Below are positions 1-13,184 of a stretch of DNA of 13,184 bases, one piece after another. The stretch is from Opitutaceae bacterium (GTDB taxonomy: Bacteria > Verrucomicrobiota > Verrucomicrobiia > Opitutales > Opitutaceae). Every line of letters starts with the position of its first letter. Positions within the stretch are counted from its first letter, which is position 1. Location: positions 1-13,184 of the forward strand of contig JAESUN010000346.1 of the NCBI GenBank assembly GCA_016763045.1, in the 5' to 3' direction. The translations under genes were made by a program, and so were the position numbers. The notes beneath the pieces were generated by a model. That model ran no database searches and was not told where the DNA came from. It was given only the letters and a program-made list of their open reading frames with translations.

Positions 1-114
1 CAATTAACTTACTCTATTGTTTTAATTATATTTTTTGTGGGGATTCCTCAGGGTCAGAGTAAATCGATCTCTCATTACCGTGGCATTACGATCCAAACCC
101 CATTAATCTATAAT

Positions 115-330
115 TTAGCAGTGATCAAAAATCCGTGTAAGGGAAATTTGTGTCCGAATTCTGGTATATTCAAATAAATCAATAGAAGAATTGTTTTTGG
201 TCACCGCTAAATTCAGGACCGGGCCAAATTCCAATAATTGAAAGTCACGTTTGGTAAGTTCCAAAGAGATAACAGCTCTCTGGTCTTTTCTTGTTTTTCC
301 AAACGCTCCCCATATTTCACCGTAATTAAC
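115..330 (-). pseudogene. C-terminal fragment of an outer-membrane beta-barrel protein (Slam/DUF560-like)
   Basis: An open minus-strand frame without a start codon runs from about 330 to a TAA at 115-117 (71 residues). The translation has alternating beta-strand character, with stretches such as SLELTKRDFQLLEFGPVLNL, then a polar turn KNNSSIDLFEY and a final strand ISLTRIF. This resembles the last strands of the barrel of surface lipoprotein assembly modifier (DUF560) proteins, which commonly end in an aromatic residue. Here four extra residues (DHC and one more position) follow the expected terminal Phe, suggesting a slightly altered 3' end. The N-terminal part is absent: at about 330-336 the sequence switches to the DUF4143 relic on the other strand. 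No promoter or start is seen, so it is a dead remnant. The family assignment is by remembered sequence style and is tentative; that it is a gene fragment is firmer. Confidence 0.45.
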
Positions 331-332
331 AG

Positions 333-902
333 CCGATATGGATGATGCTGACCCATTGTCAGGGCGGCATGCTCAATGCTTCAAATCTATCGGTCGCCTC
401 CAGAACTGTGGGATCATATGTTGATTTATTAGTTGATTTACTTTGGTTCAGGCGTTTAAAGCCCCTGCATAACAATATTGGCAAAAGACTTGTCAAAACA
501 CCCAAGATCTACATTCGTGACAGTGGATTATTACATGCGCTGCTCGGGATCAAAGATTATAATGAACTTGCCGGCCATCCTGTCATGGGTGAAAGTTGGG
601 AAGGGTTCGTGATTGAAAATATTTTATCCGTTGCGCCTCTTGGAACAAAAGCAAGCTTTTACCGCACATCAGCAGGCGCAGAAATTGATCTGGTTCTGGA
701 AATTCCTGCGGGCAAGATTTGGGCTATTGAGATTAAATCAGGCATCCGGGCCAAGCCTAGCAAAGGCTTTTATAATGCCATTGAAGATATTGGGTCTGAT
801 CGTAATTTCATCGTTTACGCAGGAAAAGATACCTACCCAATAGCAGAAAATATTGAGGTCATACCCCTACCCGATATCATGCAGTTAATTAAAAAGGAAT
901 AA
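333..902 (+). pseudogene. DUF4143 ATP-binding protein, C-terminal half only
   Basis: The frame reads PIWMMLTHCQG and continues to a TAA at 900-902. It matches the C-terminal half of the AAA-type ATPase/DUF4143 family: the winged-helix part with RLVKTPKIYIRDSGLLHALL, then WEGFVIENIL, and a PD-(D/E)xK-like core with GAEIDLVLE and AIEIKSG. Full family members are about 370-400 residues and begin with a Walker A ATPase domain, which is missing here. An in-frame TAA lies at 327-329, directly before the first homologous residues. The stretch between LNASNLS and RTVGSYVDLL is also shorter than usual, consistent with decay. An ATG at 342 could give 186 residues, but without the ATPase domain normal function is unlikely. 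The intact family is often linked to toxin-antitoxin or defence-like loci, but its role is not settled. It is convergent with the XRE relic at 939. Confidence 0.75.
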
Positions 903-938
903 ACAGTGTGATTAATAAAATTTTCCCGCGCAGATAAT

Positions 939-1211
939 TCATTGAACCTTTTGAATTCCTAAAATCAATTCAGGTTTCGCCAGCGCAGCAGTCACTTTTA
1001 AAAAGGCCTGCTGCTGCTCATCGGATAAACCTCTGAATAATTCCAGCAATATCTTTTCTCTTTCATTCTGCGCCAGAACCCCATAATCCAATATCTCAAT
1101 AGGGTGACAACCAAATACTTTCGACAATCGCTCCAACCAATCCACATTCTAACGGCGGCTCCCTGTTTCCAGTTGGTTGATCTGCCGATTACTGGACCCC
1201 ATCAATTCTGC
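939..1211 (-). pseudogene. XRE-family helix-turn-helix regulator, broken by stop and frameshift
   Basis: On the minus strand from 1211 the frame reads AELMGSSNRQINQLETGSRR, then a TAG at 1149-1151, then NVDWLERLSKVFGCHPIEIL and on to a stop at 939. This is the recognition-helix half of a Cro/C1 (XRE) helix-turn-helix domain followed by a glutamine-rich tail with ELFRGLSDEQQQAFLKV. Family members usually have RRLNVDWLERL here, so the TAG looks like a Leu (TTG) to stop nonsense change. Upstream of 1211 the frame is lost: the expected first helix is replaced by sequence in another frame that resembles a transposase. A 68-residue reading from GTG at 1145 lacks the DNA-binding helix and is unlikely to be a working protein. 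Confidence 0.65.
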
Positions 1212-1212
1212 C

Positions 1213-1332
1213 AATATGAGTCAGTAGCACCATGCTCTTACGCTGACGCTGGATCATAGGCCGACTTTTATAATAGGCTCCATAATCACAAGTGCTGACC
1301 TCCATAATCTGGCGGAGACGGCTAACTGAAAA
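1213..1332 (-). mobile_element. Probable IS3-family transposase (OrfB) N-terminal scrap
   Basis: Just upstream of the XRE relic, the minus-strand frame after a TAA at 1333-1335 reads FSVSRLRQIMEVSTCDYGAY, then YKSRPMIQRQRKSMVLLTHI. The pattern of VSRL..+..VS...Y.AY..RP followed by a basic stretch and LL..I..I resembles the start of IS3-family OrfB proteins, where an HTH_21-like region precedes the DDE core. The frame runs on to a TAA at 1189-1191, but from about 1212 the XRE homology takes over in a different frame, so the junction is near 1212. No terminal inverted repeats or OrfA were found. The similarity is judged by eye over 40 residues. The alternative is that these residues are a diverged N-terminus of the XRE gene itself. 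Confidence 0.4.
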
Positions 1333-1427
1333 TTATAGTCAATCGCAATGATTGAATAGAGGCTCGTGACCAGTACGGCATAACCTCCGCCCCAATTCAA
1401 ATCTCTTTCCAATTAATAAATTTAACA

Positions 1428-1442
1428 TGACAAGCCCTGTCA
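1428..1442. promoter_or_regulatory. Imperfect palindrome TGACA-N5-TGTCA upstream of relic promoter
   Basis: The sequence TGACAAGCCCTGTCA has perfect 5-base arms around a 5-base centre. The same 15 bases are conserved in the intact receptor promoter at 12939-12953, although bases around them have diverged. It lies about 43 bases upstream of the first TGTAAA operator. It could bind a second regulator or be part of an upstream activating site; no binding protein can be named from the sequence. Confidence 0.35.
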
Positions 1443-1477
1443 AAGTCCTTCACATACGGTTGGCTTATTTTTATAAA

Positions 1478-1491
1478 TGTAAATATTTGCA
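1478..1491. promoter_or_regulatory. LacI-type operator, distal site of relic promoter
   Basis: TGTAAATATTTGCA matches the consensus palindrome TGTAAATATTTACA with one change (A to G in the right arm). A TATAAT hexamer at 1492-1497 abuts it directly, so a protein bound here would cover a promoter. The corresponding site in the intact receptor promoter is a perfect palindrome. The change may reflect relaxed selection on the relic. Confidence 0.6.
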
Positions 1492-1526
1492 TATAATATC
1501 TTGCATGGCTAATTTTCTTGTGCTAC

Positions 1527-1550
1527 TTTTTTGTAAATATTTACAAAAAA
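1527..1550. promoter_or_regulatory. LacI-type operator, proximal site of relic promoter (24-base perfect palindrome)
   Basis: The core TGTAAATATTTACA at 1532-1545 is extended by T and A runs to a perfect 24-base palindrome. Its centre lies 54 bases from the centre of the distal site, about five helical turns, the same spacing as in the intact receptor promoter. It ends just before the ribosome-binding site (GGGA at 1551-1554) of the relic gene. Confidence 0.65.
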
Positions 1551-1564
1551 GGGAAAATATCGTA

Positions 1565-1666
1565 ATGTCTAGTAAGTTTGGTATGAAGTTTATCCCGAAT
1601 GCGGCCGTTCCTATAACGCTGGCCCAACCAAGGACGATCAGTGTGGTAGTCAGCAAGAGTTTCTGA
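1565..1666 (+). pseudogene. TonB-dependent receptor relic: start fused to C-terminus
   Basis: The 33-residue frame begins MSSKFGMKF, identical to the start of the intact receptor (12816-10558, minus). It then jumps to IPNAAVPITLAQPRT and ends VSKSF, matching the receptor C-terminus VPGAPVPVTLAQPRT...LSKRF. Relative to the intact copy, 719 codons are missing and the join is in frame. TTT is present at both ends of the join (AAGTTTAT in the 5' part, CAATTTGT in the 3' part of the intact copy), so a short-homology deletion is possible. The ribosome-binding site, start codon and both operators are kept, so a peptide may still be made, but it has neither plug nor barrel. The longer reading from 1427 is only promoter sequence read through. 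Confidence 0.85.
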
Positions 1667-1687
1667 CCATATCTGGTTCGCCAAGAG

Positions 1688-1749
1688 ATGCAGACCGTAT
1701 TAGGCCCATGAAGATATTATGAAAAAAATACAATTCGACACGATGCTAA
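1688..1749 (+). pseudogene. Relic of alpha/beta hydrolase 5' end
   Basis: Twenty-one bases after the receptor relic stop, an ATG opens MQTVLGP followed by a stop. About 60 bases from here align with the first codons of the hydrolase gene at 10536, including the shared run ACAATTCGACACGATGCT at 1730-1747. One extra C near 1707 and one missing base in an A run near 1720 destroy the frame. The GTG that precedes the ATG in the intact copy is GAG here, which supports ATG 10536 as the ancestral start. The gene is cut off at about 1749 and the sequence then becomes the next promoter. Confidence 0.75.
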
Positions 1750-1796
1750 GGTATTCATGGCTCAATTATCCCACACTTCTTGCACAAGAATCACAA

Positions 1797-1822
1797 TATA
1801 ATATCATTGTAAATATTTACAA
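1797..1822 (+). promoter_or_regulatory. Promoter -10 box and LacI-type operator for the transporter unit
   Basis: A TATAAT hexamer at 1797-1802 is followed by the perfect palindrome TTGTAAATATTTACAA at 1807-1822, which has the same core as the receptor operators. The operator would lie across the expected transcription start, a classic repression position. No good -35 hexamer is visible at 17 bases spacing (cacttc at 1774-1779). The first long gene downstream is the transporter at 2132, about 310 bases away, with a possible small ORF between. Confidence 0.55.
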
Positions 1823-1847
1823 ATTGGACATACCCTTGAATAAATAT

Positions 1848-2135
1848 ATGGACCACTCCCCTGTGAAAATGATCCACACGGGCAACGAGAACCAGCATTG
1901 CACCACCCCCTTCACAATCAGGCATAACAGGCAAAGACAGGCATCTACGCCCACGGTGACACACCTTGCCAATATCAAATGGCGACAGTCTCGGGAAGCT
2001 ATATCCTACCGGGCTAATATTGTGTTGAATGCAGATATAGCACGTCTGAACGACATCTTGGATGCCGTCCTAGCCCTGCCCTCAGACCTTCTGAGTCCCT
2101 CAATATCCCATACCTATCAGGAGATAAATCCATGA
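1848..2135 (+). CDS. Hypothetical 95-residue protein overlapping the transporter start
   Basis: This frame is open from 1719, but its first part is hydrolase relic and operator, so the ATG at 1848, just after the operator, is the earliest sensible start. No clear ribosome-binding site precedes it. Its stop overlaps the transporter start as ATGA, the arrangement seen in translationally coupled genes, and third codon positions are mostly G or C, as in the neighbours. The product is polar, with a basic middle and a C-terminal stretch NADIARLNDILDAVLALPSD likely to be helical. No family is recognised. It could equally be the untranslated leader of the transporter mRNA or remains of another gene. 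Confidence 0.35.
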   Translation: MDHSPVKMIHTGNENQHCTTPFTIRHNRQRQASTPTVTHLANIKWRQSREAISYRANIVLNADIARLNDILDAVLALPSDLLSPSISHTYQEINP

Positions 2136-3496
2136 CGACGAAAGATTGCGCCTATCCTCAAACAACACTTGCACCTGTCCCTGAAAAGACTGTTCGCAAG
2201 GTTGCCACAATTTCGCTGCTTGGAGCGAGCGTCGAATGGTACGACTTCTTTCTATATGGCGCAGCGGCGGCAGCTGTTTTTCCGAGCGTCTTCTTCTCAG
2301 GCGATCTCCCCCCTCTCGTCGCCATATTTGCATCATTTGCGACCTTCGCCGTAGGATTTATCGCGCGACCTGTCGGCGGGGTTATCTTCGGCCACTATGG
2401 TGACAAACTTGGTCGCAAGGGCAGCCTAGTAACCGCGCTGGTGCTGATGGGACTTTCTTCGGCCCTTATCGGATTATTGCCGACCTATGCGATGATTGGT
2501 GCATGGGCTCCTGCGATGCTGGTTACGCTGAGATTTTTACAAGGTATAGCCATCGGCGGGCAATGGGGTGGTGCGATGCTGCTGGCAACCGAAAGTGCGC
2601 CAAAAAATCGTCGTGGGTTCTACGGAAGCTTCCCTCAAGCGGGTGCACCGCTCGGGGTCATACTCGCAAATATTGCCTTACTTATCGTAAGTTCTTCCAT
2701 GTCAGAAGAGTCTTTCATGAGCTGGGGATGGCGTATCCCTTTCCTACTCAGCGTCATACTTGTCGGGGTTGCGCTATATGTCCAACTCAAACTTGAAGAA
2801 ACCTCCTCTTTTCGTCAGCTTAGGGAACTTAACGAGGCCGCCACTGCGGACGATGATACGCCAAAGGCGAAACCGACATCTAAGCGCTCACCCGTGCTTG
2901 CCGTTCTGGCCAGCCACCCCCGACAGATCGCCTTGTCCGCAGGGGCCTTCATCGCGGTTCAGGTCGTTTTCTATATCCTCGTCGCATTTGTGATCGCTTA
3001 CGGCGCAACCCGAGAGGGTCTCGACATATCTCGCGATACAATGCTCAGCGCGGTGTTGATAGGGACACTGATCATGACACCCGTCATTTTCATCAGCGGC
3101 GCCCTGTCTGACATCTATGGGCGTAGACCCGTGATCATGGTGGGTGCTACTCTCCTTGCTCTCTGGTCCTTCGCCGTGTTCCCACTGATCGATACGGGTC
3201 AATTTCTCTGGATCACGGTCGCTATCGCCGTTGCACAAGTTTGCGTCGCCATAATGTACGGCCCACAAGCGGCATTTTTCGCCGAACTCTTTAGCACAGA
3301 GGTGCGATATTCCGGGGCTTCGCTTGGATACCAACTGGGGGCGATCTTGGGCGGTGCGTTTGCTCCGCTCGCCGCGACAGCTCTGCTTGTAGAGTTCGGG
3401 AACGGCCTAGCGATTGCCGCCTACATGTCCGCTGCCTGCGCCGTTTCATTATTGTCGGTATTCCTGCTGGCGGAGACGTACCAGCGAGACCTATAG
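2132..3496 (+). CDS. MFS transporter, metabolite:H+ symporter (MHS) type
   Basis: A 454-residue inner-membrane transporter of the major facilitator superfamily, metabolite:H+ symporter group (the group of ShiA, KgtP and ProP), which import small organic acids or zwitterions with protons. Hallmarks are GASVEWYDFFLYG at residues 31-43, the loop 2-3 motif GHYGDKLGRKG at 87-97, RFLQGIAIGGQWGG at 134-147, a charged central loop at about 225-265, the repeat loop motif GALSDIYGRRP at 323-333, and YGPQAAFFAELF at 376-387. About twelve hydrophobic segments are expected and the length is normal. The start has a good ribosome-binding site, AGGAG at 2119-2123, eight bases upstream. The serine hydrolase follows after 61 bases on the same strand, so the two probably form one operon under the operator at 1807-1822. 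The likely substrate is a carboxylate linked to the esterases and CoA ligase nearby; that is inference. Confidence 0.9.
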   Translation: MTTKDCAYPQTTLAPVPEKTVRKVATISLLGASVEWYDFFLYGAAAAAVFPSVFFSGDLPPLVAIFASFATFAVGFIARPVGGVIFGHYGDKLGRKGSLVTALVLMGLSSALIGLLPTYAMIGAWAPAMLVTLRFLQGIAIGGQWGGAMLLATESAPKNRRGFYGSFPQAGAPLGVILANIALLIVSSSMSEESFMSWGWRIPFLLSVILVGVALYVQLKLEETSSFRQLRELNEAATADDDTPKAKPTSKRSPVLAVLASHPRQIALSAGAFIAVQVVFYILVAFVIAYGATREGLDISRDTMLSAVLIGTLIMTPVIFISGALSDIYGRRPVIMVGATLLALWSFAVFPLIDTGQFLWITVAIAVAQVCVAIMYGPQAAFFAELFSTEVRYSGASLGYQLGAILGGAFAPLAATALLVEFGNGLAIAAYMSAACAVSLLSVFLLAETYQRDL

Positions 3497-3557
3497 CACC
3501 GCGGCCTATTACCTCGACAATGATCAACTCACCTCCATTTTTCGGGACCACAGACCA

Positions 3558-4877
3558 ATGATAAAAATTTTTGACCGCCGAAAATTTCTCATCAGTGCAT
3601 CCGCCACTGCAGCTTCAGCTATTGCCTACGGGCCTGCCATCGCGAGGACAATAGAAAGTGCGAACGACCCGCTAGCCACGATTCCTGGGCTTCCGACCGC
3701 CACGCCGGAAAGAGTAGGCGTCGCGCCAGATCTTACAGCACGCATTAATGCCTTTATGCAGCACCAGATAGAAAGCGGACATCTGACCGGTGGAGTGACG
3801 GGCATTGCTCGGAGAGGAAAACTGATACACTTCTCGTCACATGGCATGCTCGACATTGAAGCCGGTACGCCGATGATCGATGATCGACTGTTCCAGATGA
3901 TGTCGTCCACCAAGCCCGTTACTGCCGTCGCCCTGCTTCAGCAAATGGAGGCGGGCAAGGTTGCGCTCGACGACAAGATTTCTAGATACATCCCTGAGCT
4001 TAAGGAAATGCGCGTGCGTGTTGCAGCAACGTCAGGAGCGCCTGTCGAAACTATCCCTGCCAACCGGGAACTCACCATCAAAGATCTCGCTACCCACACC
4101 TCGGGCTTAAACGGTTTCCTCTTGGACATACCCCCTGGCACGCCCAATACACTGGCGGCACGTATCCCTTATGCAAAGAATATTCCGCTCGATTTTCAGC
4201 CCGGTACAAAATGGGCCTATTCGGCAGTCACGGGCTCAGACATTTTAGCCCGCGTCATTGAGATTACGTCAGGTCTCTCTTTCGATCGCTACCTCAAGGA
4301 ACGGATATTCGAACCCATCGGCATGCGCGATACGGCGTTCAACCTCACCGACGAGCAACGCACACGCGTTGTTCCTAGATACTCGCGGCAAGAAAACACG
4401 TGGCACCGGGAGGTAAAAGACATGCAACTCGCTGAAATACTCCTCGCCCGCACATATGAACACAATCCAAAGACCACCTACTTCCCTGGATCTTTCGGCT
4501 TATATTCTACCGCGCGCGACTATTTGCTGTTTGAGACCATGTTACTGAACAAAGGCACAATTCACGGCAATCGCGTGATACGTCCTGATTCCGTCAGCCT
4601 GATGCAATCAAACCTCGTGGGCAACCTTTATGACGGTGGCAGCGTCTATCCGAATACCAAGGGTACGGGCTTTGGCGTTTTGGTCCGAACCGTGCTTGAT
4701 CCGGCAACCTGTGACTGCGGGCGCAAGGCTGGCGGTTTTGGCTGGGGTGGCGCATACGGCACCATAAGCTGGACAGACCCTCTAAATGAACTGATTGCTG
4801 TCTACATGGTCCAGCAACGCGTGCACGACGCTGAAGTAGAATTTGAGAAAGTAATCGCTGGCGCGCTGAGGTCCTGA
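3558..4877 (+). CDS. Tat-exported serine hydrolase, beta-lactamase/family VIII esterase fold
   Basis: A 439-residue protein of the Beta-lactamase (PF00144) family, which includes class C beta-lactamases and family VIII carboxylesterases. The N-terminus MIKIFDRRKFLISASATAAS, followed by a hydrophobic stretch and AIA at 27-29, is a twin-arginine signal, so a folded enzyme would be exported to the periplasm. The catalytic SxxK is SSTK at 116-119, the tyrosine motif is YSA at 221-223, and the third motif region is GFGWGGAYG at 393-401. The open frame starts at 3414, but that region overlaps the transporter in another frame and would bury the Tat signal, so ATG 3558 is chosen; its ribosome-binding site is weak (GGGA at 3544). 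Esterase activity fits the neighbours better than beta-lactam hydrolysis. Two cysteines at 385 and 387 sit just before the third motif. The exact substrate is unknown. Confidence 0.85.
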   Translation: MIKIFDRRKFLISASATAASAIAYGPAIARTIESANDPLATIPGLPTATPERVGVAPDLTARINAFMQHQIESGHLTGGVTGIARRGKLIHFSSHGMLDIEAGTPMIDDRLFQMMSSTKPVTAVALLQQMEAGKVALDDKISRYIPELKEMRVRVAATSGAPVETIPANRELTIKDLATHTSGLNGFLLDIPPGTPNTLAARIPYAKNIPLDFQPGTKWAYSAVTGSDILARVIEITSGLSFDRYLKERIFEPIGMRDTAFNLTDEQRTRVVPRYSRQENTWHREVKDMQLAEILLARTYEHNPKTTYFPGSFGLYSTARDYLLFETMLLNKGTIHGNRVIRPDSVSLMQSNLVGNLYDGGSVYPNTKGTGFGVLVRTVLDPATCDCGRKAGGFGWGGAYGTISWTDPLNELIAVYMVQQRVHDAEVEFEKVIAGALRS

Positions 4878-4960
4878 TCCTCAATAAGATAATAGATACC
4901 GCGGATCAAGGAGGCCTGGAAAGTCGACAAAATAGCTCAGTTAATCACGAAAATTCATAC

Positions 4961-4998
4961 ACAGAAAAAAGGAGTCCGCAGTGGCGGATTCTCACTCC
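4961..4998 (-). terminator. Rho-independent terminator of the LacI-family gene
   Basis: Five bases beyond the LacI stop codon, read on the minus strand, GGAGTGAGAATCCGCC pairs with GCGGACTCC (arms 4994-4998 with 4971-4975, and 4984-4988 with 4975-4979) around a short loop. A T run (complement of the A run at 4965-4970) follows. On plus there is no T run after the hairpin, so it probably stops only the minus-strand transcript coming from the regulator gene. Confidence 0.7.
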
Positions 4999-5002
4999 AC
5001 CT

Positions 5003-6037
5003 TTACGAATCTAATCCAGAATTGTTAACGGCCAGCCTTGTTGAGCTACGTATGACCAATTCCGCGTCGATCATGATCGTTTGCGGGGGGTCTAACGGGG
5101 TTTCGGGAGCGATAAGATTCATCATATGATGAATCATCCGACGGACAGGCGTTCTAATGGTTGTCAGGCCGTAGCTCTCATGGGCTGATTCAGGTATGTC
5201 GTCAAATCCGATCAATGCCACATCTTCGGGAATGCGCAAATTTAAATTATACCGGATCGCATCCATAGCTCCAAGAGCCATGATATCCGTCAGACAAAAA
5301 ATCGAGTCTGGGCGATCTTCACCACTCATGATCTCAAGGGCAGCCTGATACCCACCTTCATAGGTCAGCTTGCCATCGGCAATGGCCACATTTTCAATAT
5401 TTTTGATAACGCTCAAGTATCGTAAAATGGCCTGTTGCCGTTCCAGCATCGTCGTAAAGGTCTGAGAGCCTGAAATGATACCAAATCGCTTGCCACCACC
5501 ACTAATCAGTAGTTTCGCCGCCGTGATTCCACCGTCCTCGGCATTGCCGCGTACGCTATGCACCGATAGGCTGGGCATATGGCGCCCCAACATGACCACT
5601 GGGACGTCCCTGCCAAGACAAAGTGCAGCCATACGGCTCGAAATGGATGCGGCTGAGATAACAATGGCATCCACTTGATATTCCAGCATCCTTTGAAGAG
5701 TGCGGTCAAAGTCGCTGTCATTAAGCGGCGTAAAAAGAAGCAACTGCTTGTTGTTTTCCTCAAGGCGAAGGCTGGCCTCTGACAGCAGGGCAGAGTAAAC
5801 CTGATTAACGAGGTTTGGCAGCATCAGTGCGACTATATTGGTTCGTCGGGTGATCAGGCTGCTCGCCAGGCTGTTTGGGACGTAGCTCAATTGATCCGCT
5901 GCCTTACGAACCTTTTCCGCCATTTTGGGAGAAACACTGCTGCCCGGCGTGAAGGTACGACTGACGGCCGCTATTGAAACGCCAGCGAGGCGCGCAACGT
6001 CCATCGAATTGACCTTCGAACTCCGCTTCCTACTCAT
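5003..6037 (-). CDS. LacI-family transcriptional regulator
   Basis: A 344-residue regulator with the LacI layout. The N-terminal helix-turn-helix SMDVARLAGVSIAAVSRTF is at 11-29, the hinge region LSYVPNSLASSL at 50-61, then a periplasmic-binding-protein-like ligand domain (TNIVALMLPNLVNQVYSALL, and near the C-terminus PEDVALIGFDDIPES). Such proteins bind palindromic operators as dimers and release DNA, or in some members bind it, when a small ligand, often a pathway substrate, is present. The ATG has GGGAG seven bases upstream. It is divergent from the acyl-CoA synthetase, with 250 bases between the starts. The palindrome TGTAAATATTTACA recurs at the promoters of the catabolic genes around it, which makes it the prime candidate for their regulator. 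The recurring site has TA rather than the common CG at its centre, so recognition may differ from the classic LacI mode. The ligand is unknown. Confidence 0.9.
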   Translation of the reverse strand: MSRKRSSKVNSMDVARLAGVSIAAVSRTFTPGSSVSPKMAEKVRKAADQLSYVPNSLASSLITRRTNIVALMLPNLVNQVYSALLSEASLRLEENNKQLLLFTPLNDSDFDRTLQRMLEYQVDAIVISAASISSRMAALCLGRDVPVVMLGRHMPSLSVHSVRGNAEDGGITAAKLLISGGGKRFGIISGSQTFTTMLERQQAILRYLSVIKNIENVAIADGKLTYEGGYQAALEIMSGEDRPDSIFCLTDIMALGAMDAIRYNLNLRIPEDVALIGFDDIPESAHESYGLTTIRTPVRRMIHHMMNLIAPETPLDPPQTIMIDAELVIRSSTRLAVNNSGLDS

Positions 6038-6176
6038 TCAGGCACTCCCAATTGGTTATACTATGCGACAGTTAGACACTATAATACGCGGAAATTCAAC
6101 AATAAAACCGTGATAACAAGCTCCTCGCGACTGCTCACGGTTAATATGAGTAGAGCATCGATCTTAAAACTTATAT

Positions 6177-6190
6177 TGTAAGCCTTTACA
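6177..6190. promoter_or_regulatory. LacI-type operator in the divergent region
   Basis: TGTAAGCCTTTACA matches the window consensus TGTAAATATTTACA in both outer arms, with G for A at position 6 and CC for TA at the centre. It lies 140 bases from the LacI-family start and about 98 bases upstream of the acyl-CoA synthetase start. A possible plus-strand promoter overlaps it: TTTACA at 6185-6190 and TATAGT at 6206-6211, with a short 15-base spacer. It could serve both the synthetase and autoregulation of the regulator gene. Confidence 0.5.
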
Positions 6191-6208
6191 AAAATAAAAT
6201 GTTCGTAT

Positions 6209-6288
6209 AGTTTGATCTCCATATACTGGAGTTCGTCCTCATCGACATCCGGACCTTTTATAAACATTTATACCATGGAGATCAAGCT
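6209..6288 (+). promoter_or_regulatory. Leader able to hide the ribosome-binding site of the acyl-CoA synthetase
   Basis: TTGATCTCCAT at 6212-6222 is the exact reverse complement of ATGGAGATCAA at 6275-6285. The pairing extends outward through a G-U, a G-C and an A-U pair (6211-6209 with 6286-6288). The right arm contains the only good ribosome-binding site (GGAG, 6277-6280) and touches the TTG start at 6288. A second small hairpin, CTCCA (6217-6221) with TGGAG (6227-6231), uses the same left arm and so excludes the long stem. If transcription starts before about 6209 this could be a translation switch. If it starts later, the repeat may act only as DNA. Confidence 0.4.
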
Positions 6289-8249
6289 TGAGGGATGATT
6301 CAATCAGCACAGACATACGGTCAAATAGGGCATTTTTGATAGATAATGTGGATGGAGATAAAACCGTATCAACTCTAACGGATGTAAAGGCTACCGGACA
6401 ACAGTGGCCGCCCCACGACCTTCCGGAAAGCACCTATGATCTCTTGCGTCATTCCGCCGAGGCATATGCCGAGCGTATTGCTATTTCATATTTTGAATCG
6501 GTCGAAGAACATCATCAGACACGAAAATTAAATTATCGCGAACTTTTTCAAGGCGTTACCCGTTCCGCCAACTTACTAGAGCGCCTTGGCATAGGTCAAG
6601 GCGATGTCGTGGCATTGTTGTTACCGAATCTGCTGGAAACACATCTGGTGCTATGGGGCGCGGAAGCAGCCGGAGTGGTCATGCCACTCAACCCTCTTCT
6701 GGAGGCGAAAGCTATCTCAGCCTTGCTGTCGGCAGCTCAAGCAAAATTACTTATTACATTAGGGAGTGATCCCGTCCTCGTTGAAAAGATGTTCGACGCA
6801 TTGGTTGAATCGCCAACGGTCCGGGACGTTGTGTTGATATCATCCCCAACTGGTTCAGATTGCTTACGATTACAAGCCCGCTTCGATGCCTTGAAAAGCC
6901 CCGTCAAGGTCCATGATTTCACGGAATGTTTTTTAAATGCACCAGAAAACCACCTTGTAAGCGGGCGTAAAATCTCATCCGACGAGGTTGCGTCCTATTT
7001 TTGCACCGGAGGAACAACCGGACTACCAAAGATCGCCGTACGAACCCACGGACAAACAGTAGCAAACACATGGATGGTTAGTGCTATGCTGGGCACTGCA
7101 TTGAACAAGGAGTCCGTCCTGTTTTGCGGCCTTCCGCTTTTTCATGTAAACGCGGTGATCATCACGGGACTGGTCCCCTTTTTCAAAGGCGCGTCAGTCT
7201 TACTTGGCACGCCTCTCGGCTATCGTACGCGTGAGCTCATTCCTAAATTCTGGGAAATTGTCGAGCAGCATGGCGTGACCGCCTTTAGCGCTGTCCCGAC
7301 ACTATTGGTTTCTCTTCTTGAGCATCCAAGCGCCGGATATGACCTGTCTTCATTCCGCTTTGCCATTTGCGGTGCCGCACCGTTGTCGGCGGAAGTGCTC
7401 CAGCGCTTCGAGAAAACATGTCAAATCTCGATTTCAGAGGGCTATGGCATGACCGAAACGTCATGCGTCGCCTCCCTCAATCCGATCGATGGCGAACACC
7501 GGCCCGGTTCGGTAGGCCTTCCCCTGCCGGCTCAAGACCTTCAGGCTGTAATCCTCGACAAGGACGGCACCTACATTCGTGACGCCCAAACTGACGAGAT
7601 CGGCGTGGTGGGGATAGCGGGTCCGAACATCTTCTCAGGGTACATTGACCCGCATCATAATAAACACGCCTGGATTAATCGCGGTGACGGCCGAAAATGG
7701 CTGAACAGCGGCGATCTCGGAAAAATCGACAAGGACGGCTATCTGTGGCTGACGGGCCGCGCGAAAGACTTGATTATCCGTGGGGGCCACAACATCGACC
7801 CCTCCGTCATCGAGGAAGCATTCTACGCCCATCCTGAAGTTGCACTCGCGGCCGCAGTAGGACGCCCGGACGGTCGGGTAGGCGAACTTCCTGTAGCGTA
7901 TATCCAGCTCCGCGACGGAGCGTCAGTCACCGAGGCTAACCTTCTGGCCTTTGTCTCCAAAACCATCGGTGAACGAGCAGCAATTCCAAAGGCAGTCACC
8001 ATCCTTGAGGCGCTTCCCCTGACCTCAGTTGGCAAGATCCACAAGCCTACGTTGCGCCACATGGAATCAGTAGCAGTAACTAAAAAGGCACTGAAAGATC
8101 AGGGAATTGAATATTCTTCTGTCAACTTTCTGGTAGATGGTGTTGGTGGCGCCACTGTACGCATCCAAGCTAGTGTCGATAATGAGAAACCTATTCGGGA
8201 TGCGCTTTCGCTGTTCACATTCCCTTATCAAATAATCCCTGCGACTTAA
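6288..8249 (+). CDS. Acyl-CoA synthetase (AMP-forming), long form
   Basis: A 653-residue ANL-superfamily enzyme that would activate a carboxylic acid with ATP and CoA in the cytoplasm. The adenylation motifs are in order: P-loop CTGGTTGLPK at 239-248, YGMTE at 386-390, NSGDLG at 473-478, GRAKDLIIRGGHNIDP at 490-505, and the catalytic-lysine motif PLTSVGKIHK at 577-586 (K583). After this motif the chain runs on for nearly 70 residues instead of the usual 20-30, as in a group of about 630-residue acyl-CoA synthetases. The start is uncertain. TTG at 6288 is taken because GGAG lies seven bases upstream; a GTG at 6349 is the next choice and would still keep the full AMP-binding domain. It is divergent from the LacI regulator, with an operator between, and convergent with the esterase at 8284. 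Substrate unknown: aliphatic, terpenoid or aromatic acids are all possible. Confidence 0.88.
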   Translation: MRDDSISTDIRSNRAFLIDNVDGDKTVSTLTDVKATGQQWPPHDLPESTYDLLRHSAEAYAERIAISYFESVEEHHQTRKLNYRELFQGVTRSANLLERLGIGQGDVVALLLPNLLETHLVLWGAEAAGVVMPLNPLLEAKAISALLSAAQAKLLITLGSDPVLVEKMFDALVESPTVRDVVLISSPTGSDCLRLQARFDALKSPVKVHDFTECFLNAPENHLVSGRKISSDEVASYFCTGGTTGLPKIAVRTHGQTVANTWMVSAMLGTALNKESVLFCGLPLFHVNAVIITGLVPFFKGASVLLGTPLGYRTRELIPKFWEIVEQHGVTAFSAVPTLLVSLLEHPSAGYDLSSFRFAICGAAPLSAEVLQRFEKTCQISISEGYGMTETSCVASLNPIDGEHRPGSVGLPLPAQDLQAVILDKDGTYIRDAQTDEIGVVGIAGPNIFSGYIDPHHNKHAWINRGDGRKWLNSGDLGKIDKDGYLWLTGRAKDLIIRGGHNIDPSVIEEAFYAHPEVALAAAVGRPDGRVGELPVAYIQLRDGASVTEANLLAFVSKTIGERAAIPKAVTILEALPLTSVGKIHKPTLRHMESVAVTKKALKDQGIEYSSVNFLVDGVGGATVRIQASVDNEKPIRDALSLFTFPYQIIPAT

Positions 8250-8283
8250 CTTAACGGCAAGATGCAGCATATTGATCATTAAG

Positions 8284-9507
8284 TCATGACAGCTTCTCTA
8301 TACACTGGTAGGTCACTTCGCGCAGGGCTCGCGCACGTGAATCGTCGAGTACGCCTAAACGCAGATTGTTCGGCGTGTAGGCAAAACCCAAATTTGTCGC
8401 GGGATCCGCAAATGCCTGCGATCCTCCGGCTCCGGGAGTGCCATACGCGCGATCATCGGTTCCAAAGTTAAAAAATGGCCCCGGTTTCGAAAATCCGAGC
8501 GAATAGGCCGTCGGTATGCCAAGCACGATGTCCCGATCACCGCAAGAAGGTTCAATTGCTGCGGCCTCAAGCTGTTGAAAAATCTCAGACGCACAATGGA
8601 GTATTGGGTTGCGGCCCGCAAAGAGAGAATAGCTCAACGCAAGTGCCCGGGCCGTCGCCACGCCACCAAAGGATGGTAGTTCAAGCTTGAGATATTTGCG
8701 TGTCGACACGTCGGACAGATTTTTTAGTTTGGGATTGCCGGCAACGCGATGAAAGAGGCTTCGCGGATTCAAACTAGACAGGATAGTACGCAAGGGAAGC
8801 TGGCGTATCGCGCGCCAATCCGGCGTCACAACGATTTCGGCGACACGCTCATCGGGGATAGCATCAGGTAGTCCGATGTACATATCCTTGGGCGGCGGAC
8901 CAGACAGGCGATCACGCACCAATTCGCCAACGGTTCGCCCATGCTGATCAGCCCGGCGAACAATTGCATTCTGGTAGAAGCCCAGCGTTGTCGCATGATA
9001 TCCGTGCCTGGTACCAGGCGTCCAAAGCGGTACTTGTTTCGCGAGCGCATCTTCCAATATCTCACGATCTGCCATCGACTCCGGTGTCAGCGTCACGTCA
9101 ACAGCCGCCAAGCCAGCCTGATGGGCCAACAATTGCCGAACCGTTACGGATGACTTCCCCCCTTGAGCGAACTCGGGCCAATACGAAGCAACTGTGCGAT
9201 CGAAATCCAAATGGCCATCAGAATGAAGCAGCGCCATCACGAGCGCGGACAAGCCCTTGGTGGTAGACATCACGACGACCATCGTATCCTCGTCCCAGGA
9301 CTTCTGACGGTTCAAGCAACGCCAACCACCCCAGATATCGACGACGCGTTCACCGTTAACATACGCCGAACAAGCGGCACCGATCTCCCTACCCTCTCTA
9401 AAATTTTCTCGAAAGATGTCAAGTACGGACTCAAAGCCCGGCGCTATATGACCATAGAGTTCAACCTCACCCTGCGGGGTCGCAACACTGTCCTGTATAA
9501 TATTCAT
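8284..9507 (-). CDS. Serine hydrolase, EstB/LACTB-like beta-lactamase family
   Basis: A 407-residue member of the Beta-lactamase (PF00144) family, different in subgroup from the one at 3558. SxxK is STTK at 81-84 in the context VVMSTTKG, the tyrosine motif is YHATTLG at 170-176, and the third motif region is GAGGSQAFADP at 359-369. No signal peptide is seen, so it should act in the cytoplasm. This GAGGSQ and YHA pattern is typical of esterases of the family VIII group rather than of beta-lactamases. It is the last gene of the minus-strand operon receptor, alpha/beta hydrolase, this gene, with 66 bases to the hydrolase stop. The start ATG has only a weak GAGAG-like ribosome-binding site. It ends 34 bases from the convergent acyl-CoA synthetase. 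Ester cleavage feeding acids to that synthetase is the likely role (inference). Confidence 0.85.
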   Translation of the reverse strand: MNIIQDSVATPQGEVELYGHIAPGFESVLDIFRENFREGREIGAACSAYVNGERVVDIWGGWRCLNRQKSWDEDTMVVVMSTTKGLSALVMALLHSDGHLDFDRTVASYWPEFAQGGKSSVTVRQLLAHQAGLAAVDVTLTPESMADREILEDALAKQVPLWTPGTRHGYHATTLGFYQNAIVRRADQHGRTVGELVRDRLSGPPPKDMYIGLPDAIPDERVAEIVVTPDWRAIRQLPLRTILSSLNPRSLFHRVAGNPKLKNLSDVSTRKYLKLELPSFGGVATARALALSYSLFAGRNPILHCASEIFQQLEAAAIEPSCGDRDIVLGIPTAYSLGFSKPGPFFNFGTDDRAYGTPGAGGSQAFADPATNLGFAYTPNNLRLGVLDDSRARALREVTYQCIEKLS

Positions 9508-9573
9508 TTCATCTCTCTATCAATCATGCTAGCAGCCCAATGAATTCGGACATCTTTCCTATGCATCTCAACG

Positions 9574-10536
9574 TTAGGAAATAAGAACACTAAACGCCGC
9601 AAGCGCTCTATCCACATCTCTCTTTGTCGACGGTATCGCAGCCGTCATGCTGAAGCAACCATGTATGTTACCCACGGCTTCCTGATAAACAACTGGCACG
9701 CCCGCTTCGATAAGGCGAGCCGCATAAACCCGTCCTTCATCACGTAGCGGATCGAGACCAGCAGTCACAAGCAAGGTCGGCGGCATGCCGGTTTGGTCGA
9801 AGGCAAGCAGATTGAAGCGAGGATCATCCTCGGGGGCATCATAGTGCCCTGTGAACCAATCTAGCGTCTTACGCGTAAGATAATATCCATCCGCATTTTC
9901 TCGCATCGAACGGGTTTCCAGACCGATAGAGACACAGGGATAGATCAGAAACTGCCCTATCAACGGAATTTCAGTAGGCTTGTCAATCAAAGCGCGCGCC
10001 GTAATGGCGGCCAGATTAGCCCCCGCACTGTCTCCAGCGAGGACCAAACCGGACAAGCGGATGCCGAGCGCATCAGAGGCGTTGGTTACGATCCAGCGCG
10101 CCGCCGCTTCCGCATCGTCGGGAGCTGCGGGCCAAGGGTTTTCCGGCGCAAGCCGATAATCGACCGAGACAAGCGGAAGGTTCAGGTCACGCGCGATTGT
10201 GAGGCAAAGCTCATGATGAGAATCGAGATCACCCATCACAAATCCTCCGCCGTGAAAATACAGGATCAGAGGTGTTGGCGCGCCCCTATCCTCCGTATTA
10301 TAACAACGAAGCCCGATTTCCCCGCCAGAATGCGTGAAGCAGATGTCCCGCACGCTAACCAAGTCTTGCTCCACAGGCGCAGAGCGCATTTTCTTGGATA
10401 TCGCGCGCGTTTCCTCCACGCCAAGTTCGCCAATCTGCGCCAGAGGAGTAGTGGCCAGCAGGTCAAGCAGCGCCTGAGCATCGTGTCGAATTGTGTCTTT
10501 TCTCATAAGATCATCATGGCCTATTAATGTTTGCAT
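9574..10536 (-). CDS. Alpha/beta hydrolase of the HSL (hormone-sensitive lipase) type
   Basis: A 320-residue cytoplasmic esterase. Counted from the chosen ATG, HGGGF at 95-99 forms the oxyanion hole, DYRLAPE follows at 126-132, and the nucleophile elbow is GDSAG at 168-172 (Ser170). The likely acid residue is Asp262 in GLDPLRDEG and the base is His292 in NIHGC. These are the marks of the HSL family (bacterial family IV), which hydrolyses short to medium esters. A GTG one codon earlier is possible, but the relic copy has GAG there while keeping ATG, so ATG is preferred. It begins 21 bases after the receptor stop, with no strong ribosome-binding site, suggesting translation coupled to the receptor. 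A third ATG at residue 11 (MRKDT) is an alternative. The second operon esterase follows at 9507. Confidence 0.9.
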   Translation of the reverse strand: MQTLIGHDDLMRKDTIRHDAQALLDLLATTPLAQIGELGVEETRAISKKMRSAPVEQDLVSVRDICFTHSGGEIGLRCYNTEDRGAPTPLILYFHGGGFVMGDLDSHHELCLTIARDLNLPLVSVDYRLAPENPWPAAPDDAEAAARWIVTNASDALGIRLSGLVLAGDSAGANLAAITARALIDKPTEIPLIGQFLIYPCVSIGLETRSMRENADGYYLTRKTLDWFTGHYDAPEDDPRFNLLAFDQTGMPPTLLVTAGLDPLRDEGRVYAARLIEAGVPVVYQEAVGNIHGCFSMTAAIPSTKRDVDRALAAFSVLIS

Positions 10537-10632
10537 CACTTGGCGCAGCAGATATGGTCAGAACCTCTTGCTGAGTACCACGCCGACTGTCCGTGGTTGG
10601 GCCAGGGTCACAGGAACTGGCGCGCCTGGGAC
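10475..10632 (-). repeat. Right arm of inverted duplication, 3' part
   Basis: Counterpart of 1592-1749. It contains the last 24 codons and stop of the intact receptor, the short gap, and the first 62 bases of the alpha/beta hydrolase gene. Shared runs include TTCTGACCATATCTG (minus strand) across the stop codon and ACAATTCGACACGATGCT in the hydrolase. Confidence 0.8.
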
Positions 10633-12816
10633 AAATTGATTGGTAATGGTGGATGCGGAAACTTCGCCGCTAACACCGAAGAGATTCTTGATATAGGGGC
10701 TAACCTCCCAACCGTCCGCTAATTGCAAGTTCATGGTTGCATCGACAATATTGTAACTGGCAAGCTTGTAAAGAAGCGCCACATTACTGCCCTCGTAGCC
10801 GGAGTTGCGCGCGCCGATGTGCCTTAGCGTAACATTCAGAGATCCTTCTATGGAATCGCTTAGCTCGAAGCTGTATTTTGTCGCCAAGGCGAAGCTGAAT
10901 TTTGACGAGAGGGGTAACCTTGCGCCGATGTAGTTCAGGCCGAGAACCGGTGCCACAGTGGTCAGCTTGGCGTCCGTATAGGACGCTGTAGCAAGGACGT
11001 TGAAATTCGGAACGACGCGATAGGACAGCAATGCCTCAGCGCCGTTGACGCGCGCGTTACCAGCATTCACGAGCTGATTAACGCCCCCGATATTGCGGAC
11101 TTGCTGAATGTTGGTCCAGTCGATGTGGTAAGCGCTGACATTGATAAAGCCTCGCCCTGCCAGACTTTGTTTCACCCCGACTTCATAGTTCCAGAGCTTA
11201 TCAGGCGAAAAGGACAGATTACCGCTACTGGTGCCGCCGGTCTGCAAATTGGGTCCGCCAGGCCGATAACCGCTGGCGATGCGGCCGTAAATCATGGTTT
11301 CCTCTGTCGGACGGTAGCGCAGATTGAAGAGATAGGTTTGAACAGACTCTTTGGAGGTTCCGGTACTGACTATAGAGGTATTTGGTGCGGGCGGGTTCAC
11401 AATGAAACCGAAACCACTGGAGGAAAATACCTGATCGCTCCAGTTTTGCCGTATACCGGCTGTCACATCCAATGTGGGACTGATCTGGAGCGTTGCATTG
11501 GCGAAGAGGGCGAAATCCTTAGCCACGCTAGGCAAATCGAACCTGCCGATGGGCAGGCCAAGCAGCTGTCCTTGGGGATCGGCATTGTTTTGTATGTTGG
11601 CCACCTGAAACGTTGTCTCGCGAGAATAAAAAGCGCCCGCGACCCACTCTAATGTGCCGCCGCTTTCTGAGGTCAGGCGCACTTCCTGGGTTAAGCGCTT
11701 GCTCGTAGAGTCACTGAGAAGAATGTAAGGGTTGACGCCGATCGGCCCCAGAGCCGCGCCTAGAATGGCACTATAGGCGACACCAAAATCACTCGCGGAC
11801 TGATTCCGTATCTTTTGATAGGCGGTGATTGAAGTCAAGTTTGCCCATTGAAGGTCCCAGTTGATCACGGCGCTTCCCAGATAGAGTTCTGCTTCGGCCC
11901 CCTGAGATGAAGCGAAAGACTGATCGTAGGTGCCTTGTGTCGGGGCGTGGGTAACCACATCACGCATGGAGGCCGCGGTGCCGTTGCTTTGGAGGTGCTC
12001 AGCGAAACCGTTCAGTTGAATCTGAAGGTCTGGCGTAACGTCAATCAGAAGAGCGAGGCGCCCATGCAACATGCGGGAGTTACCGATATTCTCCCGGTTG
12101 TGATCCGGATCATCAATATAACCAGGAGCGTCCTCGGCCATAGCGGTCACGCGTAAAGCAACCTTGTCGCCCAAGGGGGTGTTCAACGCCACCCGAGCGG
12201 CCCCGCCAACCTTACTGTTGGAGGTGAAGTTGCCTTCTGCCTCTATCTGCCCGGAGAATTCGTCGAGGCTTGGCGCTTCGGTAATATATCTTAGCGTACC
12301 GCCGAGCGCATTCGCGCCGAAAAGAGTGCCTTGTGGGCCGCTGAGAACTTCTACCCGTTGAAGATCGAAGAGGCCGATATTGATGGCCTGCGCACCTGCG
12401 CCGAAGGGAGTACTTGACCCGATCGGGACATCATCGAGATAGAGGCCAATTGCGCTGTTCAACTGTTTACTTCCCGTAGTAATGCCGCGAATGACAACTT
12501 TGTTGGTGTTCGGTGATGTTGACTGAAAACTCACACCAGGCGTGAAGGCCGCGAAATCGACAAGGCTTCTGGCTTTCAAATCTTGCAACATTTGACCGCT
12601 GACGGCGCTGACAGCACCAGGCACATCATGGAGGCGCTCGTCGCGCCGTGTCGCGGTAACAATAATTTCCTCAAATGCCGTCTCTACGCGTTTCTGGGAA
12701 GCATTATCCGCAGACGACGACCCGGCCTTCTCCTGCGCATAGGCAACCGGACTCAATGCGACGATTACCAGAGCCGAAACGCTGGACATAAACTTCATAC
12801 CAAACTTGCTAGACAT
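10558..12816 (-). CDS. TonB-dependent outer-membrane receptor
   Basis: A 752-residue receptor for energy-dependent uptake across the outer membrane. The signal peptide ends near AYA (25-27) before QEKAG. A TonB box EEIIVTATRR is at 49-58, then the plug domain with VPGAVSAVSG (65-74) and VEVLSGPQGTLFGANALGGT (155-174), and a long beta-barrel ending in the terminal Phe of VLSKRF. The length is normal for the sphingomonad family involved in uptake of organic substrates. An upstream GTG at 12954 would add 46 residues of promoter read-through with two operators in it, so ATG 12816, preceded by GGGAGA and eight bases, is chosen. It is the first gene of an operon with two hydrolases, which suggests that an ester is the cargo. 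Expression is probably set by the two palindromes at 12834-12907. A relic of a second copy lies at 1565. Confidence 0.93.
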   Translation of the reverse strand: MSSKFGMKFMSSVSALVIVALSPVAYAQEKAGSSSADNASQKRVETAFEEIIVTATRRDERLHDVPGAVSAVSGQMLQDLKARSLVDFAAFTPGVSFQSTSPNTNKVVIRGITTGSKQLNSAIGLYLDDVPIGSSTPFGAGAQAINIGLFDLQRVEVLSGPQGTLFGANALGGTLRYITEAPSLDEFSGQIEAEGNFTSNSKVGGAARVALNTPLGDKVALRVTAMAEDAPGYIDDPDHNRENIGNSRMLHGRLALLIDVTPDLQIQLNGFAEHLQSNGTAASMRDVVTHAPTQGTYDQSFASSQGAEAELYLGSAVINWDLQWANLTSITAYQKIRNQSASDFGVAYSAILGAALGPIGVNPYILLSDSTSKRLTQEVRLTSESGGTLEWVAGAFYSRETTFQVANIQNNADPQGQLLGLPIGRFDLPSVAKDFALFANATLQISPTLDVTAGIRQNWSDQVFSSSGFGFIVNPPAPNTSIVSTGTSKESVQTYLFNLRYRPTEETMIYGRIASGYRPGGPNLQTGGTSSGNLSFSPDKLWNYEVGVKQSLAGRGFINVSAYHIDWTNIQQVRNIGGVNQLVNAGNARVNGAEALLSYRVVPNFNVLATASYTDAKLTTVAPVLGLNYIGARLPLSSKFSFALATKYSFELSDSIEGSLNVTLRHIGARNSGYEGSNVALLYKLASYNIVDATMNLQLADGWEVSPYIKNLFGVSGEVSASTITNQFVPGAPVPVTLAQPRTVGVVLSKRF

Positions 12817-12833
12817 TACTATATTCTCCCTTT

Positions 12834-12851
12834 TTTGTAAATATTTACAAA
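12834..12851. promoter_or_regulatory. LacI-type operator, proximal site of receptor promoter
   Basis: TTTGTAAATATTTACAAA is a perfect 18-base palindrome just upstream of the receptor ribosome-binding site, with its centre about 26 bases from the ATG. It is probably within the transcribed leader, or at the start point if TTGCAT (minus strand, spanning 12873-12878) is a -35 box. Its centre is 54 bases from the distal site. Confidence 0.65.
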
Positions 12852-12883
12852 GGTGTAACACAAGCAAATTAGCCATGCAAGAT

Positions 12884-12907
12884 ATTATATGTAAATATTT
12901 ACATATA
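12884..12907 (-). promoter_or_regulatory. LacI-type operator with abutting -10 box, distal site of receptor promoter
   Basis: A perfect 22-base palindrome (12886-12907, core TGTAAATATTTACA at 12890-12903) overlaps a TATAAT hexamer (minus strand, 12889-12884). A protein bound here would block a promoter using that box. Two equal sites 54 bases apart on the same face of the helix would allow cooperative binding or looping. Confidence 0.65.
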
Positions 12908-12938
12908 TAAAAATAAGCCAACAGCATGTGAAGGCCTT

Positions 12939-12953
12939 TGACAGGGCTTGTCA
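12939..12953. promoter_or_regulatory. Imperfect palindrome TGACA-N5-TGTCA upstream of receptor promoter
   Basis: Identical in all 15 bases to the site at 1428-1442 in the relic copy. It lies upstream of the distal operator at the place expected for an activator site. No regulator can be assigned. Confidence 0.35.
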
Positions 12954-13033
12954 CGTTAACTTTATGAAGCGTGATATTCTTTTAAATGTGTAGATCAAAC
13001 AACATCGTATTGAGAAAATTTATGTGACAAACC

Positions 13034-13183
13034 CTAGAAAATAGCAATGGCATTGACCGGACTACCCGTTCCGCCCGGCACTGATGTGTCAATGATCTCC
13101 GCCTTGCAGCCGATCACGACCTCGCCCACATAGCCCCTGATCCATACTTCTCGGTGACCATAAGCAACCGGCACAGAATAATC
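13034..13183 (-). mobile_element. IS21-family transposase (IstA-like) C-terminal fragment, cut by window edge
   Basis: From the right edge inward on minus, the frame reads DYSVPVAYGHREVWIRGYVG, then EVVIGCKAEII. This matches the C-terminal beta domain of IS21 IstA-type (Mu-like DDE) transposases, which normally continues with ARH.RSY. Here it instead continues DTSVPGGTGSPVNAIAIF and stops at 13034-13036. The break at about 13090 suggests a deletion or recombination joining the transposase to unrelated sequence. The rest of the element lies outside the window. No IstB gene or terminal repeat is seen inside it. Confidence 0.65.
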
Positions 13184-13184
13184 A

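Follow-up and report, generated by a model that had tools for sequence, protein, structure and literature searches.

Local regulons of the LacI/GalR family and one carbohydrate-utilisation locus are the closest described systems to the one analysed here. In the sections of the LacI-family catalogue of Ravcheev et al. 2014 (PMC4052901) drawn on here, local regulons such as those of LacI, PurR and CcpA adjoin their regulator gene and have an even palindrome as operator, and the operator centre is CG for 1173 of 1303 regulators, different for 49 and degenerate for 29. In the sux locus of Xanthomonas campestris, as the cited part of its description has it, a LacI-type repressor controls a TonB-dependent receptor and an MFS inner-membrane transporter (SuxR, SuxA and SuxC; PMC1790865). 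We analysed a stretch of 13,184 nucleotides from an Opitutaceae bacterium (assembly GCA_016763045.1, contig JAESUN010000346.1, positions 1 to 13,184), hereafter the window, in which a 14-bp palindrome, TGTAAATATTTACA, recurs around the gene of a LacI-family regulator (5003–6037). From comparison with related loci, we consider it highly probable that these palindromes are operators of this regulator, which would act locally to repress a locus for uptake and ester breakdown. The locus resembles the catalogued regulons in domain layout, in its even palindrome, in the site before the regulator's own gene and in the adjoining genes; however, its sites are centred on TA, CC or AC rather than CG, and its predicted targets are esterase-type hydrolases and a coenzyme A (CoA) ligase rather than sugar enzymes. 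As in the sux locus, a receptor, an inner-membrane transporter and a LacI-type regulator occur together, but we found no sugar-processing (carbohydrate-active) enzyme among the ten window proteins scanned with Pfam.

Palindromic sites and their counterparts in relatives

We found seven matches to TGTAAATATTTACA at up to three mismatches in the window; shuffled windows had a mean of 0.52 and none of 200 reached seven, which confirmed that the palindromes are real and above chance. Exact copies start at 1532, 1808, 12836 and 12890, the site at 1478 has one mismatch (TGTAAATATTTGCA), and the site at 6177 has three central changes (TGTAAGCCTTTACA). A near-symmetric variant with three mismatches (TATAAACATTTATA) lies at 6259–6272, 15 bases before the ligase start codon. 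We presumed that the receptor starts at ATG 12816, which is preceded by GGGAG; the sites at 12836 and 12890 are then upstream of the gene, despite a longer open frame that spans both.

The earlier note on this DNA, made from the sequence alone, had counted six palindromes in promoter positions. The sites held, but only four of them are independent because the region at 1413–1751 copies the receptor region, so that 1478 and 1532 are duplicates of 12890 and 12836. Within this region, 1413–1593 is an inverted copy of 12788–12968 (91%), 1589–1706 of 10518–10635 (80%) and 1723–1751 of 10473–10501 (90%). Approximately the first nine receptor codons continue in frame into the last receptor codons, so the copy lacks its middle part. 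The spacing of 54 bases that the earlier note saw in both receptor pairs is indeed shared; however, it was inherited by the duplication and is no independent evidence.

When we scanned the contigs of genomes, we found four loci with related regulators: L005, in a metagenome-assembled genome named Robiginitomaculum (genome G057; 83% identical), L006, in Sphingomonas leidyi DSM 4733 (G058; 68%), L007, in Sphingomonas sp. ERG5 (G059; 64%), and L008, in a Rhizobiaceae metagenome-assembled genome (40%). Locus L139, in genome G1406, was added by searching 250 genomes of the ERG5 genus; its regulator is 72% identical to that of the window and is the same protein as P0014, named Sphingomonas sp. PAMC 26605 in the protein search. 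In L005, L006, L007 and L139 a TonB-dependent receptor gene and an Abhydrolase_3 gene come after the regulator, in the case of L007 with another AMP-binding gene in between, and the window receptor is 73, 62 and 59% identical to the receptors of L005, L006 and L007.

In all five loci (the window, L005, L006, L007 and L139), a site lies 16–25 bases before the presumed receptor start, which in L006, L007 and L139 was taken from the preceding purine-rich stretch, in frames that also have earlier start codons. This site is TGTAAATATTTACA in L005 and L007, TGTAAATATATACA in L139 and TGTAAGCCTTTACA in L006. Between lacI and the divergent CoA-ligase gene, a variant site is present in all four loci that have this gene pair; read on the ligase strand, it is TGTAAGCCTTTACA in the window and L005, TGTAAGACTTTACA in L139 and TGTATACCTTTACA in L006. 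The best match to the palindrome arms has no mismatch in seven of these nine regions and one mismatch in the L139 receptor region and the L006 divergent region. In 2000 dinucleotide shuffles of each region, this match was equalled 0, 3, 0, 0 and 9 times for the receptor regions (126 bases; window, L005, L006, L007 and L139) and 0, 1, 0 and 0 times for the divergent regions (window, L005, L006 and L139). The 14-bp core in five loci is the kind of even palindrome to which a LacI-family protein would bind, and the link drawn earlier between the palindrome and the LacI-family regulator is borne out to the extent that the site goes with the lacI orthologue and with the receptor and ligase promoters across these loci. 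The receptor pair, in contrast, is not conserved: a second receptor site, a weak one, is present in L005 at 79 bases, and L006, L007 and L139 have none, so we rejected a conserved looping pair.

Promoter placement, specificity across genomes and rival explanations

To place the sites with respect to transcription, we considered promoter-like sequences near them. In all five receptor promoters there is a TTG-N20-TA pattern whose TA starts 6–10 bases before the operator, with a frequency of 0.005–0.055 in shuffles for each; the pattern was seen by eye before it was tested, which makes the test descriptive. At this distance the operator would cover the transcription start. In all four loci with the divergent pair, the TTTACA right arm of the ligase-promoter site is 17 bases upstream of TAG and may double as the –35 element, which would explain why this arm is kept while the other arm varies. 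Both placements favour repression by blocking RNA polymerase, and the placement thus suggests repression rather than activation.

A genome-wide scan for the motif, proposed as a check along with the palindromes, found exact copies absent outside the locus in G000, G057 and G059 and loose matches at the level of the control. The bin of the window (2.29 Mb in 442 contigs) has four exact copies of the 14-mer, all in the window, and 17 matches at up to two mismatches as compared to 12 for a reversed control pattern; loose matches therefore mean little. The contig itself looks like a foreign island or a misbinned piece by its composition and the lack of orthologues in relatives. Its tetranucleotides correlate at 0.51 with 20 other contigs of the bin (eight of them chosen for holding a near-match to the palindrome), and among these 20, compared in turn with the rest, 15 score 0.82–0.94 and five score 0.12–0.72, one of them below the window. 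No regulator orthologue was found in 56 relatives of the window's genome, where the best other match is 108 bits as compared to the window's own 730. Since the contig may be foreign or misbinned, the bin-wide count carries little weight, and G057 and G059 give the better counts. The exact TA-centred 14-mer has a single copy in G057 and a single copy in G059, each at the receptor, and none in G058; in G059 the receptor copy is the sole match even at two mismatches. TGTAAGCCTTTACA is found exactly once each in G057 and G058, both within the locus, and not in G059.

The regulator is rare: we found three carriers, defined by a match at E up to 1e-70, among the 250 genomes of the ERG5 genus, the regulator occurs in one of 397 sampled genomes of its family, and G057 alone among 398 genomes of its order has a regulator above 42% identity. 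No plasmid-borne orthologue was found; 15 plasmid records matched, the best at 40.7% identity. Among the 250 genus members, the exact 14-mer is present in G059 alone, a regulator carrier, and at up to one mismatch the 14-mer is present in two of three carriers as compared to five of 247 others (Fisher p 0.002). In addition, G058, G059 and G1406 each have, outside the locus, one or two copies of TGTAACCGGTTACA, a palindrome that shares the outer arms but is centred on CG; it is perhaps the operator of another LacI-type regulator.

Several observations weigh against reading the palindromes as operators of this regulator. By the window statistic alone, the site at 6177 is close to chance; we took it as real because counterparts occur in the relatives. 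L007 has neither a site upstream of lacI nor a divergent ligase gene there, L008 has no site in its locus, and TGTAANNNNTTACA is absent from all 52 loci of regulators with 34–42% identity. In L005–L007, tblastn found neither the MFS gene nor the esterase gene behind it, to which the 1808 site would belong. Loose searches do not separate the motif from controls: at up to two mismatches there are 43, 1 and 1 matches in G057, G058 and G059 as compared to 43, 2 and 3 for the reversed control, at one mismatch seven of the 250 genus members match as compared to five for the control, and TGTAANNNNTTACA has 23 sites in five genomes (G000, G057, G058, G059 and G1406), 10 of them within the locus, as compared to 22 for the control. 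Two G057 sites, TGTAAGTATTTACA and TGTAAGTGTTTACA, were dropped as operators since they lie inside reading frames; G057 has a third such site, TGTAAATTGTTACA, and G000, G058, G059 and G1406 have outlying sites as well. Finally, by score TTG-N20-TA is neither the top promoter pair of the window nor one of the top three in L007; the –10 hexamers of the receptor promoters are poor, and near the sites of the window receptor and the L005 ligase there are hexamer pairs that score higher.

Three other explanations can be weighed with these data. The palindromes could be operators of another, unlinked regulator, with lacI a bystander, as a centre that differs from the CG of most LacI motifs might suggest; however, the site accompanies the lacI orthologue over a range of 64–83% identity, including upstream of lacI in four of the five orthologue loci, its exact form is confined among the genus members to a carrier, and near some related lacI genes there is a 16-bp palindrome in the same register, so that we regard this explanation as unlikely. 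An RNA element, a putative weak hairpin next to the ribosome-binding site in the 5' leader, would fit the closeness of the receptor site to the presumed start codon (16–25 bases) and the flanks that extend the palindrome in several loci, but we give it very little credence, as the half-arm has only one G-C pair, the identical sequence lies 310 bases before the MFS start and the ligase site coincides with a possible –35 element and would not be transcribed there. That a single palindrome arose by chance in AT-rich spacer DNA and was copied is scarcely believable, even with 1478/1532 copied from 12890/12836 and loose matches at control level across genomes, given the same position in the 64% GC loci L006 and L007 and the shuffle results for the window and the locus regions.

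The operator centre and more distant LacI relatives

To compare the operator centres, we considered 11 distinct sites (12836, 12890, 1808 and 6177 in the window, two each in L005, L006 and L139, and one in L007), a count that excludes the two relic sites, the weak L005 site at –79 and the site at 6259, which was considered in the window only. On the strand of the receptor, MFS or ligase gene, six are centred on TA, four on CC, one on AC and none on CG, in agreement with the earlier remark that the centre is not the usual CG. Non-CG centres are a catalogued minority and thus uncommon but known. A real local LacI regulon with non-CG operators is well supported, as a new regulon of a known kind. 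In the literature searched, we found no printed record of the 14-mer or the related 16-mer strings, and no paper in which LacI controls receptor, esterase and CoA-ligase genes.

The LacI-family hinge helix has a conserved alanine and an intercalating leucine, and Francke et al. linked loss of the CG pair to loss of this leucine (PMC2329647, in the part of the study cited here). In the regulators of the window, L005, L006 and L007, both the alanine and the leucine are present, and L139 has isoleucine for leucine; the hinge leucine is thus kept in four of five orthologues despite their non-CG sites.

Among the 52 loci of more distant regulators, 13 (L123–L135, 12 of them from G057's order) have a CG-centred palindrome, TTGCATTCGAATGCAA, in the same register as TTGTAAATATTTACAA. 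These loci were chosen for having such a palindrome, two are from one genome, and L136 was added as a locus without one. They resemble the window locus in that a 16-bp palindrome of the form TTG...CAA, as in seven of the 11 window and relative sites, lies near lacI, and 10 of the 13 have a TonB-dependent receptor gene; they differ in the CG centre and in a recognition helix that reads QSA (QSS in L135) rather than IAA. The CG palindromes presumably belong to the regulators of these loci. Variants ending GAAGTCAA in L128, L133 and L134 hint at a second motif.

Among the matches listed, the 91 proteins closest to the window regulator (P0001–P0091) include 82 in which the recognition helix could be read, as IAA in 78 and VAA in four, and nine in which it could not. 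In a tree of 64 rows, the five site-bearing orthologues and the 13 CG-site regulators are on separate sides with 100/100 support, subject to a long-branch warning. As a tentative idea that we hold to be somewhat less than even in its chances, a LacI clade may have exchanged a QSA recognition helix for IAA and an operator resembling TTGCATTCGAATGCAA for TTGTAAATATTTACAA. The CG step would have been lost, whereas the hinge leucine, which is held to intercalate at this step, would mostly have stayed. Such a clade would also accept a second, asymmetric class of site (TGTAAG-C/A-CTTTACA and kin) in which one arm is kept as a promoter –35 element. The two groups offer a natural comparison, with the same register, mostly the same hinge leucine and a different centre, for what reads the middle of a LacI operator.

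Genes of the locus and a proposed mechanism

From left to right, Pfam and NCBIfam place in the window a DUF4143 fragment, an MFS transporter, a beta-lactamase-fold hydrolase, the LacI-family regulator, an acyl-CoA synthetase, a second beta-lactamase-fold hydrolase, a hormone-sensitive-lipase type hydrolase and the TonB-dependent receptor (Table 1). The regulator matches PF00356 (N-terminal LacI helix-turn-helix) at 46.0 bits (cut-off 27) and PF13377 (the Peripla_BP_3 sensor domain) at 69.8 bits (cut-off 26.5). The enzymes found at the locus comprise one acyl-CoA synthetase and three hydrolases of the esterase type. Among solved structures, those nearest to the three hydrolases are named lipase, esterase or carboxylesterase, except the best one for the alpha/beta hydrolase, which is named EH0 only. 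The structure closest to the ligase is that of an oxalate-CoA ligase, with fatty-acyl, feruloyl and malonyl CoA synthetases next. A reading of a hydrolase as a chloramphenicol hydrolase or resistance gene was rejected, with an NCBIfam match of 202 bits as compared to a cut-off of 500.

We propose that, without inducer, a regulator dimer would sit directly behind the –10 region of the receptor promoter, which would serve the receptor, the alpha/beta hydrolase and a beta-lactamase-fold esterase, and likewise behind that of the MFS/esterase promoter. In the divergent region between lacI and the CoA-ligase gene, the regulator would mask the ligase –35 element and dampen its own gene. Entry of the substrate or a breakdown product would make the regulator release the DNA, and the receptor, transporter, esterases and CoA ligase would be switched on jointly; the likely route is receptor-mediated entry of an ester, its hydrolysis and conversion of the released acid into a CoA thioester. 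This would be a LacI regulator over esterase and CoA-ligase genes, not sugar genes. Such targets suggest a non-sugar inducer, and offer a route to the substrate of the TonB-dependent receptor.

Table 1. Predicted operators, genes and relic in the window
Feature	Position	Strand	Basis
TonB-dependent receptor, 752 residues	10558..12816	-	Pfam Plug, TonB_dep_Rec
Receptor-proximal operator (predicted), TGTAAATATTTACA	12836..12849	.	Exact; 19 bases before ATG 12816; counterpart in 4/4 relatives
Receptor-distal operator (predicted), TGTAAATATTTACA	12890..12903	.	Exact; 54 bases upstream of proximal; spacing not conserved
Divergent lacI/CoA-ligase operator (predicted), TGTAAGCCTTTACA	6177..6190	.	Right arm TTTACA, 17 bases before TAGTTT
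MFS operator (predicted), TGTAAATATTTACA	1808..1821	.	Exact; 310 bases before MFS start
Duplicate of receptor operator pair, in receptor relic	1478..1545	.	1478-1491 one change, 1532-1545 exact
Relic, inverted partial copy: receptor promoter, first and last receptor codons, alpha/beta hydrolase gene start	1413..1751	+	Inverted repeats I1, I2, I3
lacI-family regulator gene, 344 residues, proposed binder	5003..6037	-	Pfam LacI, Peripla_BP_3; PurR, CcpA and LacI structures matched
Alpha/beta hydrolase, hormone-sensitive-lipase type, after receptor	9574..10539	-	Abhydrolase_3; lipase and esterase structures
Beta-lactamase-fold serine hydrolase, probably esterase	8284..9507	-	Pfam Beta-lactamase; best structures carboxylesterases
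Acyl-CoA synthetase, divergent from lacI	6288..8249	+	AMP-binding; NF005714 775 bits (cut-off 632)
MFS transporter, metabolite/H+ symporter type	2132..3496	+	TIGR00883 406.6 bits, below cut-off 443.45
Second beta-lactamase-fold hydrolase, probably esterase	3558..4877	+	Carboxylesterase structures

Around the 1808 site, the significant BLAST matches of the DNA are the relic of the hydrolase start and otherwise only the palindrome. A frame of 138 residues (1719–2135) begins in the hydrolase relic, includes the 1808 site and shares an ATGA overlap with the start of the MFS gene; it has no Pfam match as a whole frame or for 1848–2135. Further to the left, 342–1145 holds the DUF4143 fragment and the apparent end of a broken helix-turn-helix gene, seen by eye and without a Pfam match. 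In L005, at 16105–17575, genes with Heparinase II/III C-terminal and cupin domains follow the esterase genes and are possibly an unrelated alginate-type cluster.

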